Shown here in pieces: positions 34,423 to 40,603 of a stretch of DNA of 44,863 nt. Each line of letters starts with the position of its first letter. Position 1 is the first letter of the stretch. Both the position numbers and the translations under genes were made by a program. Source of the stretch: Acholeplasmataceae bacterium (lineage in GTDB: Bacteria > Bacillota_I > Bacilli_A > ML615J-28 > CAG-313); contig DUPC01000049.1 of the NCBI GenBank assembly GCA_012838545.1, positions 1-44,863 of the forward strand, in the 5' to 3' direction. Below the pieces are notes generated by a model, which worked only from the letters and a program-made list of their open reading frames with translations, made no database searches and had not been told where the DNA came from.

Positions 34423-35340
34423 ATGACTGAGTATTATCAAAATTTACTTCGAGAATGGCGCTATTATTTACAAAGCGAAAAAATGATGAGACCCAACACG
34501 ACCGATTCTTATCTCAGCGACGTTTCCTTTTATTTAGATTTCATCAACAAAAAACTAATTGACGATGTCAATTTAATTAAAGCAGACGACATCACTTTGT
34601 TCATCGGACAGTTGAAGAAAAAAGGATATACTTCAAGTTCGATAAGTCGCTATCTTTCCAGTATAAAATCCTTCCACAAGTTTTTGTATTTGGAACGCCT
34701 GGTGAAAACCAATGTGGCTTCCCTGGTGGCTTGTCCCAAAGTAGACAAAAAATTACCGGTTGTATTATCAATCGAAGAAGTTGCTGCGCTTTTGGACTAC
34801 CTGGGAAAGGATAGCGTTTATCAAGAAAGGAACCTGGCCATGATGGAGTTATTGTATGCAACGGGGCTACGCGTATCCGAACTGCTTTCCTTGAAGTTGA
34901 GCAATTTGCATTTAACCAGCAAAATTATTAAATTGGTGGGAAAAGGCCAAAAAGAACGCATTGTTCCGGTCAATGATTATGCCATAAAATTGTTGAGGGA
35001 ATATATTATCAATACCAGACCAAAATTAATTAAGACTTTAAAAGATCCTGGCTTTTTGTTTTTGAATAATCGCGGACAAGCAATGACCAGACAAGGTTTC
35101 TTTAAAATCCTTCGGATTGCATGTCGAGAAGCGGGAATCACCAAAGAAGTGTCACCTCATACTTTGCGTCATTCTTTTGCGACGCATTTATTGGAAGCTG
35201 GGACCGATTTAAGGTTGATACAAGAATTATTGGGGCACGAAGATATTGCGACCACGCAAATCTATACCCATTTGAATATGAAAAAAATTAAAGAAATTTA
35301 CCAGGAAGCGCATCCGCGCGAAAGGAGAAAAAATGAATAA
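34423..35340 (+). CDS. xerD: Tyrosine recombinase XerD
   Basis: ELLYATGLRVSELLSLKLSNL, HTLRHSFATHLLEAGTDLRLIQELLGHEDIATTQIYTHLN; 305 aa. Confidence 0.92.
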   Translation: MTEYYQNLLREWRYYLQSEKMMRPNTTDSYLSDVSFYLDFINKKLIDDVNLIKADDITLFIGQLKKKGYTSSSISRYLSSIKSFHKFLYLERLVKTNVASLVACPKVDKKLPVVLSIEEVAALLDYLGKDSVYQERNLAMMELLYATGLRVSELLSLKLSNLHLTSKIIKLVGKGQKERIVPVNDYAIKLLREYIINTRPKLIKTLKDPGFLFLNNRGQAMTRQGFFKILRIACREAGITKEVSPHTLRHSFATHLLEAGTDLRLIQELLGHEDIATTQIYTHLNMKKIKEIYQEAHPRERRKNE

Positions 35341-36514
35341 TTTTCCATATCGAAGGATTTTTGTGATAGTTGCGGATTCATTGGGAGTCGGTGCTTTGCC
35401 GGATGCAGAAAAGTACGACGATGCCGGTGCCAATACTTTGGGACATATTGCCCAATATGCAACATCATTTAAGATTCCCGTTTTAGAGTCGCTCGGCATT
35501 GGCCACATCTGTCCCAGCGATCGCATTAAAAAGGTAACTCCCCCAAAAGCTACTGTTACGAAGTTGCAGGAAATCAGTGTCGGCAAAGACACTTTGACCG
35601 GACATTTCGAACTAATGGGCTTGGAAGTACTGACCCCTTTCCCTTCCTTTACGGAAACTGGTTTCCCGCAGGAGTTAATTGACAAACTTTCTTCTTTCTG
35701 CAAACGCCCCGTTATCGGCAACATCAGCGCCAGCGGCACCGAAATTATCAAAGAACTCGGGGAAGAACAAATGCGAACCGGTGCGTTAATCGTTTATACT
35801 TCCGCTGATTCGGTTTTGCAAATCGCTGCGCATGAAGAAATAATACCTTTACCGGAATTATATTCCATTTGCGAATATGCTAGAAAGATTACGATGGAAA
35901 ATCCGAAATGGATGGTTGGTCGGATTATCGCCCGTCCTTATGTCGGAACCAATGCCTCGAATTTCACCAGGACAACTAATCGCCATGATTATGCGGTTAA
36001 GCCGTTTGCGAAAACGACGATGGATTATTTGAAAGAAGCCGGCTTTGATGTCATTGCCATCGGAAAAATAAACGATATTTTTGATGGCGAAGGCATTACC
36101 GAATTTTATCGTACCAAAAGCAATCGCCACGGCATGGAAACGACTATTGCAATGCTTGAAAAAGACTTTACCGGTTTGTGTTTTACCAATCTTGTCGATT
36201 TCGATGCCTTATACGGACATCGCCGTGATGTTGATGGCTATGCGAAAGCGATCGAAGAATTTGACGCTCAACTTGGCACATTTATTTCCAAGATGGAGGA
36301 CGATTGCTTGTTGATGGTGGTAGCCGACCACGGGAACGATCCGATTCACCAGGGAACCGACCATACGCGCGAATATGTTCCGCTTTTAATTTATGCCAAT
36401 AATTGGCAACCGGAAGTTTTGCCAACCCAAAAAAGCTTAGGCTGCGTTGCACAAACAATTGCGGATAACTTTAAAATTCAAAAGCCGAAAATCGGAACCA
36501 GCCTTTTAAAGTGA
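35333..36514 (+). CDS. deoB: Phosphopentomutase
   Basis: RIFVIVADSLGVGALPDAEKYDDAGANTLGHIA, DTLTGHFELMGL, VADHGNDPIHQGTDHTREYVPLL. Confidence 0.97.
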   Translation: MNNFPYRRIFVIVADSLGVGALPDAEKYDDAGANTLGHIAQYATSFKIPVLESLGIGHICPSDRIKKVTPPKATVTKLQEISVGKDTLTGHFELMGLEVLTPFPSFTETGFPQELIDKLSSFCKRPVIGNISASGTEIIKELGEEQMRTGALIVYTSADSVLQIAAHEEIIPLPELYSICEYARKITMENPKWMVGRIIARPYVGTNASNFTRTTNRHDYAVKPFAKTTMDYLKEAGFDVIAIGKINDIFDGEGITEFYRTKSNRHGMETTIAMLEKDFTGLCFTNLVDFDALYGHRRDVDGYAKAIEEFDAQLGTFISKMEDDCLLMVVADHGNDPIHQGTDHTREYVPLLIYANNWQPEVLPTQKSLGCVAQTIADNFKIQKPKIGTSLLK

Positions 36515-36542: not shown

Positions 36543-37460
36543 ATGCGTAGGCGATTGAGTATGAAATACGATGATAAAACCAATTTGGTTGTTTATCATT
36601 GGTGTTATTCAGAAACCGAACCTAAAGCCGTAATTCATTTGTCACACGGGATGGCAGAACATATTTTGCGGTACGACAACTTCGCTTCCTACTTAGCGGA
36701 TCAAGGTTTCTACGTAGTTGGGCATGACCATATTGCCCATGGAGAAAGCGCTGATAATCCTAGCGAAATAGGTATTATCCGCGAAAGCGACTTTATGAAA
36801 GCAATTATCAATGGAATGAAACTTGTATATGATGAAACTTTAGAGATTTATCCGGATCTACCCCGTTTCCTCTTTTCTCACAGTATGGGGGCGATGGCTG
36901 CCGAAAGGTATATTGAGTTATTTCCGAATGATTTCCAAAAAGTAGTTTTATCCGGTGCCGATATTGGCTCGTCAAGGTATTGGTTTTTGAAAATATTAAC
37001 CAAGATTATGATGTGGTTCCAAGAACCTACCGCTACTTCACAAATGCTTCATCGCTTGACCTTAGGTGCTTTTGACAAAAGGTTTCAAAATGATTATCCA
37101 AGGCACGGTTGGTTATCGACCGACAAAATGACGGTAATTGCTTATGACAATAATCCCTTGTGTGGAATGAAATTCCCCATCAACTATTTTCATTCTTTAG
37201 CCAAAATGCTCCTTAAGGCAAATTGTAAGAAGGAACTAAAGAAAATTTCGAAAGAAGTGGAAATTCTTTTAATCAGCGGGGAACAAGACCCAGTCACAAA
37301 TAAGGGCAAAGCCCTCCAAAAACGTTTGAAACGTTATCGCCGCTTTAAAATTGAAACAAACGGCATTATCTATCCTAAAGCCCGTCATGAATGTTTGAAC
37401 GAAGAAGCTTTCATCCAAAAGCAAGTTTATCAAGACCTCATTACATTCTTTCAAAACTAG
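36543..37460 (+). CDS. Alpha/beta hydrolase, monoacylglycerol lipase/lysophospholipase-like
   Basis: IHLSHGMAEHILRYDNFASYLADQGFYVVGHDHIAHGES, LFSHSMGAMAAERYI nucleophile elbow, ARHECLNE catalytic His. Confidence 0.9.
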   Translation: MRRRLSMKYDDKTNLVVYHWCYSETEPKAVIHLSHGMAEHILRYDNFASYLADQGFYVVGHDHIAHGESADNPSEIGIIRESDFMKAIINGMKLVYDETLEIYPDLPRFLFSHSMGAMAAERYIELFPNDFQKVVLSGADIGSSRYWFLKILTKIMMWFQEPTATSQMLHRLTLGAFDKRFQNDYPRHGWLSTDKMTVIAYDNNPLCGMKFPINYFHSLAKMLLKANCKKELKKISKEVEILLISGEQDPVTNKGKALQKRLKRYRRFKIETNGIIYPKARHECLNEEAFIQKQVYQDLITFFQN

Positions 37461-37475
37461 ATCAACCTGAGATTA

Positions 37476-37502
37476 AACACCACGATTGTGGTGTTTTTAT
37501 TT
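37476..37502 (+). terminator. Rho-independent terminator after the hydrolase gene
   Basis: AAACACCAC-GATT-GTGGTGTTT followed by TTATTTT. Confidence 0.8.
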
Positions 37503-38320
37503 TAGCGAAACCCAAAACAGGGCCATTTTAACTCTTTGTCCTCGATGAAGGTAATTAAACGTTTATCGCAAAAAAACTCGGAATTTGGCTGTTTTTGGGC
37601 TCTGTTGGTTAAAATAGAATTAAGTAGTAATTTAGGAATTGGATTATCTGAGTTCGAAAGTATTAGGCAAATAACCCAAGAAAGAAACCTAAAACCAGTG
37701 TTTTCACAACCCTTCTGTGCGCGTTTGAAAAAATATTTTGTGGGTAATTACCCATTCGAACGCTTATAGAGGGGTTTTGGATTTAGAGGTTAAAAGCTCA
37801 TTTTTTAAAAAAGCTTTAATAATACTTGATTATCAAAAGCTAATTCGAGAATCACCCCCATTTTTTTTAGAAGTGCTTAACTTGGGTAAAACAAAAATTT
37901 GGCCAACTAATCCGGTAACCATTTTTTGAATCATAAAAAAAATAATATATTCAAAAATTGACTCTTGGAAAAACCCTAAAGGGGATATAAATAAAACGAG
38001 TTATATTCGGTTACGAAAACGTAAGAGATCTATCCAACTAAAAAATACTTTCTAAAAGTTTATATAAAGCAAAACCAAACCGTTTCAGAAAAGCCTGAAA
38101 AGAATTATCAAGCTAAAAATAATTCGAGCGCTTCTAGATTGGTAATTTATCTCATAAAGGGAACTAAGAAAAAAATTGATAGTTTTAAGGTGGGGAAAAG
38201 TAAACCCATTTAGAATCTTTATAAGCAAATCAAATAACCATTTCTATTTATTTTTCTGCATTTATTATAATTATCAACACTTATTAAAAAGTTGATTTTA
38301 TCGGCTTATTACCTTTATAA

Positions 38321-38393
38321 ATAGAAAGTTAACATAATATATATTATAGGAAGTTACATGTATATAGTGAATTACCGAATATAGGAAGTTAAA
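38321..38393 (-). repeat. Three directly repeated Xer-arm-like motifs (TAACTTYCTAT) around the dif candidate
   Basis: Plus strand ATAGAAAGTTA (38321-38331), ATAGGAAGTTA (38346-38356), ATAGGAAGTTA (38381-38391). Confidence 0.7.
38327..38354 (-). other. Candidate chromosomal dif site (XerC/XerD dimer-resolution site)
   Basis: Minus strand ACTTCCTATAA-TATATA-TTATGTTAACT, 11-6-11 Xer architecture; 26 of 28 positions match the B. subtilis dif sequence ACTTCCTAGAATATATATTATGTAAACT recalled from the literature; lies at the gene-orientation switch. Confidence 0.9.
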
Positions 38394-38664
38394 CATATTC
38401 TTTTCCGTTGAATTAGGTAGTTTATTGCAGGATTTTGCCTAATTGTGTCGAATAAACTAATTCATTTTTCCTTATCTGACTATGTTTATTTGGGCTTCTT
38501 TTGTCGACTCTTTGGATGTAATGAAACCAAAAAAACCACGTTATTCCTCATTTCTTCAGTTTATTGAATAAGATTTCATTTTGATTAACAAGGTGCCTAA
38601 TTAGGCCAATTTTTAAGGTTAAATCCCAAAATTGGATAGGTGTTCTTCTTCAATCAGAAATAAT

Positions 38665-38695
38665 AAAAAAAGCCCATTGTCAGGACTTTTGAAAG
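38665..38695 (-). terminator. Rho-independent terminator for the minus-strand PHP gene unit
   Basis: Minus strand AAAGTCC-tgacaat-GGGCTTTTTTT. Confidence 0.65.
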
Positions 38696-38699
38696 GTAA

Positions 38700-39530
38700 T
38701 TATACATTGTTTTCTTTTTCGTTTGCTGTAGGAAGGGTTATTCGCGTGGAATATTTGATGCCAATAGCTTCTGCCATTTGGTAAGCGGTCAGAGTTGCTT
38801 GATCATGGAGATGTTCAACCAAGTGGCAATCATCGTTGATTATTACTTTGGCTCCTTTACTTCTTACCAAGCGCCAAAATTCCAATCGGGGATAACGATA
38901 AACAATTTCCCCTTCGGGATTTAGGAAGGACCGTTTACGTATTCCGTTGGCATTCATTTCAAGATAAACATCATTGGCGATGCAGGCATCGATTATCTGT
39001 TCCGCAATTTTAATCGCATAAGCGTTCCAGTCAGGATTATTGAATAAATAAATATCCGGATGCGCAAGGATAGTAAACCAACCGGTGTTAAGGGCTTTGG
39101 TGACGGTTTGCGCATAAACATCCAACCGGGCAGGAGTCATCTTGTCGTAGACACTAAAAAATCTTCCCTGCGTTAATGGTAAGTAGTGCTGTCCCAAAAT
39201 CAAGTAATCAACCTCATTAAGCATTTGGGGATAAAGCTCGTGCATGGCCTCAAAGTATTCAGCCTCTAAAGCCGAGTATAAAACAATTTTCCCTTGATAT
39301 TTCTTTTTCGCACGCGCAAGGGAGGGTAAGTAAATTGTTCGATATTCCTCTTTAGTCATCCTCCGGGTAACCAACTTCTTCTCAATCTCATCAATTAACG
39401 GCACATGATCGGATATTCCGATTTCTTTATATCCCAGTTCGATTGCTCGGTCTACATAATCGTCAATGTCGCCAATCGCATGTCGACAAAGCCAAATATG
39501 CGTATGATAGTTGCTGTCAATATTTAGCAT
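38700..39530 (-). CDS. PHP-domain phosphoesterase (histidinol-phosphatase-like)
   Basis: NYHTHIWLCRHAIGDIDDYVDRAIELGYKEIGISDH, LEAEYF, LGQHYLP, LAHPDIY, INDDCHLVEHL. Confidence 0.85.
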   Translation of the reverse strand: MLNIDSNYHTHIWLCRHAIGDIDDYVDRAIELGYKEIGISDHVPLIDEIEKKLVTRRMTKEEYRTIYLPSLARAKKKYQGKIVLYSALEAEYFEAMHELYPQMLNEVDYLILGQHYLPLTQGRFFSVYDKMTPARLDVYAQTVTKALNTGWFTILAHPDIYLFNNPDWNAYAIKIAEQIIDACIANDVYLEMNANGIRKRSFLNPEGEIVYRYPRLEFWRLVRSKGAKVIINDDCHLVEHLHDQATLTAYQMAEAIGIKYSTRITLPTANEKENNV

Positions 39531-40603
39531 TAGCGTAATAACCTCGATATGTCTTTCTCTTCTGTTTCGATTTTAACCCATCTGGCGCTCCGGCCGGTGC
39601 CTAGTGGGCGGATGCGATTATCGCATTTCAATTTTTTTAAAACTCGATTGATTGTGGAATCGCTGATGTTGGGATGATAGTTTTTGATATCCGCTTTGGT
39701 GAAAATATCGGGCAGTTTTTCAATCGTTTGTTCGACATGGTCGACTTTAAGTAAATTTTCATCATATTGGTAATTGATTAGGAAGTTTTCCAAATTAATA
39801 TAAGATTCTTCGATTATTTTAAACAAGATACGGTTTAAGCCAAAGACTTGCATAAAACCTTCGTAATAGTTCAAACTCGCAACATTAACTTCGTTTTGAA
39901 TATCCATTTGATATTTAAAAAAGATTTCAAAGAAACTCAGGTAGTAAAAGCAATGAATACCGCTTCTCAGAATCATGTAATATAAAGCCAAAAAGCGCAT
40001 TAATTCATTGCCTTTGGTGAACGGTTTAATATTGGCCATTTCTACAAAGACAATTGACGAAAGAAATATTGGTTCAAATTGCTTTTTTTCGATCATCAAA
40101 TAATAATCATCCAGAACAGTGTCAAACAATACGCGACGGCTCTTTAACGGAATACGAGTTTTTCCTTTTTTAGTGAAGTTGATTTTTTTTCCTTTGGAAT
40201 CAACCGGAACCAAATTTTCCATATCAAAGGAGGCGTAATTTCGGCCGAATATTTTATTGACCATGGAAAGTAAATCGCTCGAATTAAAAGGATATTCTTG
40301 GGCTTGGGTTTGAATACTGGTTAAAACAGTTTTTATTTTTGCTACAACTTTTTCGTCGGCTGTGCGGGGTTCGGAATTTTTGGTAACAATTAAACGCATC
40401 CGATTGTCATTAATGTTTAAACCAATTAATTGAGCTAAAAAATAAGTATCCGTTTCCAAGGTCTTCTCTTTAATCAATTCTAGATTGTTGCATAAAATGG
40501 AACAGTATTGTTCATTTTTGCCCAGAAATCGATAAACCCTTAACATGGATAATAATAAATCAGCAGGCAAAATGTATTGTTTAACATTTTCTAAATGACT
40601 CAT
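39530..40603 (-). CDS. Fic-fold-like protein with C-terminal winged helix and degenerate Fic motif
   Basis: FVEMANIKPFTKGNELMRFLALYYMI aligns with the Fic core HPFx[D/E]GNGR but lacks the His; C-terminal FTKADIKNYHPNISDSTINRVLKKLKCDNRIRPLGTGRSARWVK looks like a wHTH. Confidence 0.55.
   Translation of the reverse strand: MSHLENVKQYILPADLLLSMLRVYRFLGKNEQYCSILCNNLELIKEKTLETDTYFLAQLIGLNINDNRMRLIVTKNSEPRTADEKVVAKIKTVLTSIQTQAQEYPFNSSDLLSMVNKIFGRNYASFDMENLVPVDSKGKKINFTKKGKTRIPLKSRRVLFDTVLDDYYLMIEKKQFEPIFLSSIVFVEMANIKPFTKGNELMRFLALYYMILRSGIHCFYYLSFFEIFFKYQMDIQNEVNVASLNYYEGFMQVFGLNRILFKIIEESYINLENFLINYQYDENLLKVDHVEQTIEKLPDIFTKADIKNYHPNISDSTINRVLKKLKCDNRIRPLGTGRSARWVKIETEEKDISRLLR

Follow-up and report, generated by a model that had tools for sequence, protein, structure and literature searches.

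The 28-mer ACTTCCTATAATATATATTATGTTAACT, on the minus strand at positions 38327-38354 of the window (the whole stretch analysed, 44,863 nucleotides from an Acholeplasmataceae bacterium), is almost certainly, as judged from the comparative analysis, the chromosomal dif site of an uncultured member of the tenericute-type Bacilli, with XerC and XerD predicted to act on its arms in the FtsK-dependent splitting of dimers. Sites of this kind are where accidentally joined chromosome copies separate at the end of replication, and the dif itself is an ordinary, expected site of the known XerCD type. What is new here is the flanking element, not the core: the best explanation overall, which is very probably correct, is a dif core accompanied by a selected flank on the XerD side that carries candidate DnaA boxes.

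The dif core and the replication terminus

The initial annotation had placed a minus-strand 28-mer with 11/6/11 architecture in a large convergent gap, and its position and arms were confirmed exactly. The XerC and XerD arms are presumably as listed, the assignment being taken from established knowledge of XerCD/dif systems.

38327..38354, minus strand: dif, 28 bp (11 + 6 + 11), two differences from B. subtilis dif
38344-38354, minus strand: XerC arm, ACTTCCTATAA
38338-38343, minus strand: centre, TATATA
38327-38337, minus strand: XerD arm, TTATGTTAACT
36543..37460, plus strand: lysophospholipase-like alpha/beta hydrolase, last left gene before dif
37475..37496, plus strand: terminator-like hairpin 3' of the left convergent gene
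38668..38690, minus strand: terminator-like hairpin 3' of the right convergent gene
38700..39530, minus strand: PHP-domain (HisJ-like) gene, right convergent neighbour
38380..38398, minus strand: partial second copy of the end of the dif XerC arm, 35 bp from the dif arm, with exact ACTTCCTATA at 38380-38389

The two arms are inverted-complementary at 7 of 11 positions. A distance of two positions from B. subtilis dif had been claimed, and the sequence printed verbatim in PMC3025954 gives exactly that number (positions 9 and 24, 26/28 identical).

The organism's own draft genome comprises 65 contigs and 1.71 Mb at 96% completeness, and about 8e-5 chance matches to the 28-mer at up to three mismatches would be expected in it. 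A whole-genome search at this threshold had been proposed with the expectation of one match, and one was found, the dif itself, rather than several; none of 100 shuffles of the window contained the 28-mer. A search of the same type found dif in single copy in 34 of 60 relatives, with no matches to a reversed control pattern in the relatives' genomes, and there is one copy per chromosome in the draft genome and in the closed relatives. The exact 25-mer core of the site is found mostly in records of uncultured Bacilli, Acholeplasmatales, Anaeroplasmataceae and Izemoplasma, and in Bacillaceae as well.

The convergent gap spans 37461-38699, with the terminator-like hairpins at either end, as the description of a large convergent gap had implied. 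Left of dif nearly all long ORFs lie on the plus strand, right of it all of them lie on the minus strand, and GC skew changes sign at the site (left side about +0.05, right side about -0.07). The cumulative skew, for which an extremum near the site had been predicted, has its within-window maximum at 39110, about 0.8 kb from dif; the peak is broad, and the best two-segment change point falls at 40390. The draft genome is too fragmented to order, and the distance from dif to dnaA was taken from five closed or near-closed relatives, where it amounts to 48.0% (G056), 52.7% (G053), 50.3% (G052), 47.8% (G129) and 47.8% (G108) of the contig, or 48-53% of the chromosome. The site is thus intergenic and at the skew shift point in the window, and opposite oriC in the closed relatives, and the earlier proposal that it marks the replication terminus holds. 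The stretch separating dif from the last left gene (37461-38326) is longer than in several relatives, and contains no ORF of at least 80 aa, no Rfam match and no clear repeat. An RNA element was considered for the gap as a whole and rejected, there being no Rfam match at E<=0.5.

The 28-mer could also be read as the remnant attachment site of a mobile element that integrates at dif (IMEX), or as a decoy; the partial second copy 35 bp away and the left part of the 1.2-kb gap, longer than in several relatives, speak for this. However, the genome holds only one full copy, and across the organism's own family the dif sequence is identical or nearly so and its gene neighbours are the same. With no flanking duplicate of the full dif and no mobile gene adjoining the site in the window, the mobile-element reading was rejected as very improbable. 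The partial copy may be a mere remnant or an additional, weak Xer site. No counterpart was seen in the dif-anchored alignment of relatives, and its interpretation as a conserved XerD-loading site was discarded for this lack of conservation.

Recombinases and the position of xerD

Two Phage_integrase proteins are encoded in the genome, and both score above the corresponding NCBIfam equivalog cut-offs, on which the XerC and XerD calls are based. The presumptive XerC is encoded on another contig (C34), and XerD is encoded in the window, with deoB lying between it and dif in most relatives.

34423..35340, plus strand: xerD (TIGR02225, 337.6 bits, cut-off 329.6), on the XerD-arm side, 3 kb from dif and pointing at it
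35333..36514, plus strand: deoB (phosphopentomutase)

Tyrosine-recombinase motifs and catalytic residues are retained in both proteins (in XerD, R150, K174, HxxR at 246-249, H272 and Y281), and an FtsK-gamma domain is also encoded (PF09397, 51.7 bits). The initial identification of the 28-mer as dif is therefore well supported by the single genomic match, the skew shift and the presence of Xer and FtsK-gamma genes.

From one side hemW, xerD, deoB and the hydrolase gene aim at dif, and from the other the PHP-domain gene and its neighbours, an arrangement that is found across the organism's own family and, with local changes, in most of the next. At 35 of the 47 assessable loci (those whose sequence continues far enough past the XerD arm), xerD is found 1-6 kb from dif, always on the XerD-arm side and always aimed at dif. 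By family, the linkage is present at 9/9 loci in f1, 11/12 in f2, 5/5 in f10, 6/6 in f21, 1/1 each in f7, f9 and f11, and 1/2 in f4; none of the assessable loci in f12, f13, f20 and f22 has xerD near dif. Both this linkage and the extension of the site described below were outside what the initial annotation could see.

In B. subtilis, the CodV/RipX (XerC/XerD) system likewise combines a 28-bp site, two recombinases, a SpoIIIE/FtsK-type translocase and a terminus location; unlike in the present case, neither an xerD gene 3 kb from dif nor DnaA-box-like repeats in an XerD-side flank are described for it in the excerpts of PMC3025954 and PMC13220808. The placement of a recombinase gene beside its site is shared with XerS/difSL of streptococci and XerH/difH of epsilon-proteobacteria, and published reviews (PMC5357621, PMC2731167) describe such linkage as a feature of these single-recombinase systems. 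Those systems, however, have one recombinase and atypical sites, and a module of that type was rejected here on the strength of two Xer genes and a canonical 28-mer.

A conserved flank on the XerD side

As judged by conservation, the dif site extends beyond its 28 bp by about 60 bp on the XerD-arm side. Positions in this flank are numbered from the end of the XerD arm.

38263..38326, minus strand: conserved XerD-side flank of dif, +1 to +64
38271..38279, minus strand: DnaA-box-like nonamer TGTTGATAA (TTATCAACA on the plus strand), +48..+56, one mismatch to TGTGGATAA
38281..38289, minus strand: degenerate repeat TTTTAATAA, +38..+46, at the place of the main box in relatives, three mismatches; probably a decayed box

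Conservation was expressed as excess identity, the pairwise likeness beyond that expected from composition among loci anchored on dif. In the organism's own family this is 0.24 at +1..+34, 0.09 at +35..+64 and 0.01 at +65..+104, with 0.07-0.09 upstream of dif. The corresponding values are 0.14, 0.07 and 0.00 in f2 (upstream 0.00-0.03) and 0.30, 0.31 and 0.14 in f10 (upstream 0.09-0.15). In f21, f13 and f22 the upstream, XerC side is conserved too, and the asymmetry is accordingly not universal. A 46-bp stretch of the flank is single-copy in the genome. The sequence of the inner block (+1..+34) is conserved inside a family but varies from one family to another.

Unseeded motif discovery on the +1..+120 stretches returned aTGTGGATAA, locked near +38. 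The near-exact nonamers (TGTGGATAA) start chiefly at +39, then at +48 and +58. With up to one mismatch, TGTGGATAA occurs at +30..+68 in 31 of 131 loci, against a mean of 2.0 and a maximum of 5 in shuffles; the loci were chosen by dif alone, and their rows are phylogenetically non-independent, so that 31/131 is not to be read as a simple probability. At the same 131 loci, the opposite strand yields none, the XerC side two and the +110..+148 interval none. Roughly three quarters of the dif-anchored loci, including Bacillus relatives and a group with AATTATTCATCT in its upstream flank, have no near-exact box. In a class-wide pattern search, the element follows dif in f10, f13, f20, f21 and f22. 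The motif is present in families in which xerD is not linked to dif, and it therefore does not hitchhike with neighbouring genes.

The conserved flank of about 60 bp, with one to three same-strand DnaA-box-like nonamers (+39, +48, +58), can with good confidence be regarded as a selected element. The improbable alternative is a plain dif, whose flank owes its likeness to shared ancestry or AT-rich composition and is without function. In model systems the 28-bp dif alone suffices, the window has only a weak box, and most Bacillaceae rows of the alignment lack one, all of which would suit a plain site. Against this, the excess identity in f1 and f2 ends at about +65 while the remainder of the gap has diverged to expectation, the loci with the nonamer far outnumber those in shuffles, and the motif is kept across differing gene neighbourhoods.

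Other elements were observed around dif in other lineages, and every lineage seems, from the alignments, to have its own dif flank. Bacillaceae sites (L066, L098, L104, L121, L130, L132, L137 and L141) have in common a TTGAGAT/TTGAGAC-like element on the XerC side, at about -30..-20. In another group of uncultured Bacilli (L092, L101, L106, L144 and similar loci), AATTATTCATCT lies on the XerC side at -30..-18 of dif. At L171, in G052 (f12), dif is followed by a short hairpin and then, about 23 bp from the site, by an inverted XerD half-site, AAGTTAACATAATGAAGT.

A possible role of DnaA at the terminus

Read on the opposite strand, TGTGGATAA is the DnaA box TTATCCACA. DnaA is the replication-start protein, and a site for it at the opposite end of the chromosome is unexpected. 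Tandem nonamers matching TTATCCACA, as at oriC, are present in the clade; in the window, one copy departs from the match at a single position and the box in tandem with it is degenerate. Tandem boxes with 8-11 bp spacing also occur at the dnaA loci, the organism's own dnaA locus (L185) reading TGTTGATAATGTGGAAAA, and the window box TGTTGATAA is the same variant that adjoins TTTTCCACA there. The box variants found most often at dif, TGTGGAAAA, TGTGGATAA and TGTTGATAA, are likewise the most frequent ones around dnaA of these lineages, a likeness partly forced by the selection of both sets at up to one mismatch to one consensus, and drawn from dnaA loci that include coding sequence. A reading of the flank as KOPS was rejected, because TTATCCACA, the sequence on the strand that points at dif, is not rich in G.

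On this evidence, it is a little short of an even chance that DnaA binds the dif flank. The alternative, which is unlikely though weightier than a plain dif, is that a dedicated terminus protein (an RTP/Tus-like fork barrier, an SMC unloader or a Xer accessory factor) binds there and that the resemblance to DnaA boxes is coincidental. The position lock, strand polarity and spacing of about 10 bp would suit any cooperative binder, and the inner block has a conserved sequence of its own that is not accounted for by DnaA. The box also lies on the side of XerD, a recombinase reported to unload SMC at the B. subtilis terminus (cited in PMC12322038). However, the motif that emerged from the unseeded search is the DnaA nonamer, in the same commonest variants as at the dnaA loci of the same lineages, and no candidate protein was identified.

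If DnaA is the ligand, we infer that the flank would be a DnaA-dependent accessory element at dif. XerC and XerD would bind the two arms, and DnaA, or another protein that recognises this sequence, would bind the flank beside XerD; FtsK would bring two dif copies together at the septum, and strand exchange by XerC/XerD would split the dimer. DnaA bound in the flank could license or position Xer recombination, or influence Xer synapsis. Alternatively, once the terminus has been duplicated the flank might titrate or convert DnaA, which would tie the end of one round to control of the next. Either role is less probable than DnaA binding itself. A tentative extension, less probable again than binding, is that in a broad set of families of tenericute-type Bacilli dif may sit at the centre of a larger terminus module. 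DnaA on tandem boxes, at a distance of about 38 bp from the XerD arm, would there link the initiator physically to dimer resolution, or replication of the terminus would serve as a signal that resets DnaA for the next round.

Plasmid cer and psi offer a familiar case of host proteins binding accessory DNA next to a Xer site, but they act on plasmids via ArgR, PepA and ArcA, and neither proteins nor sites of that kind were identified here. Non-coding clusters of DnaA boxes away from oriC that control DnaA activity are represented by datA, DARS1 and DARS2 in E. coli (PMC4585315); unlike the present flank, these are larger, work with other proteins and are not at dif, and all they have in common with it is the idea of remote DnaA boxes. 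Among the titles and abstracts listed from a library that covers a minority of subscription papers, there was no report of DnaA boxes at dif.

The dif site gives this uncultured lineage a fixed terminus on an unordered draft genome, and the conserved association of xerD with dif means that linkage between recombinase gene and site is not confined to single-recombinase systems. If the flank does bind DnaA, the start and the end of the replication cycle would be marked by the same protein, and the control of initiation would be readable at the terminus.
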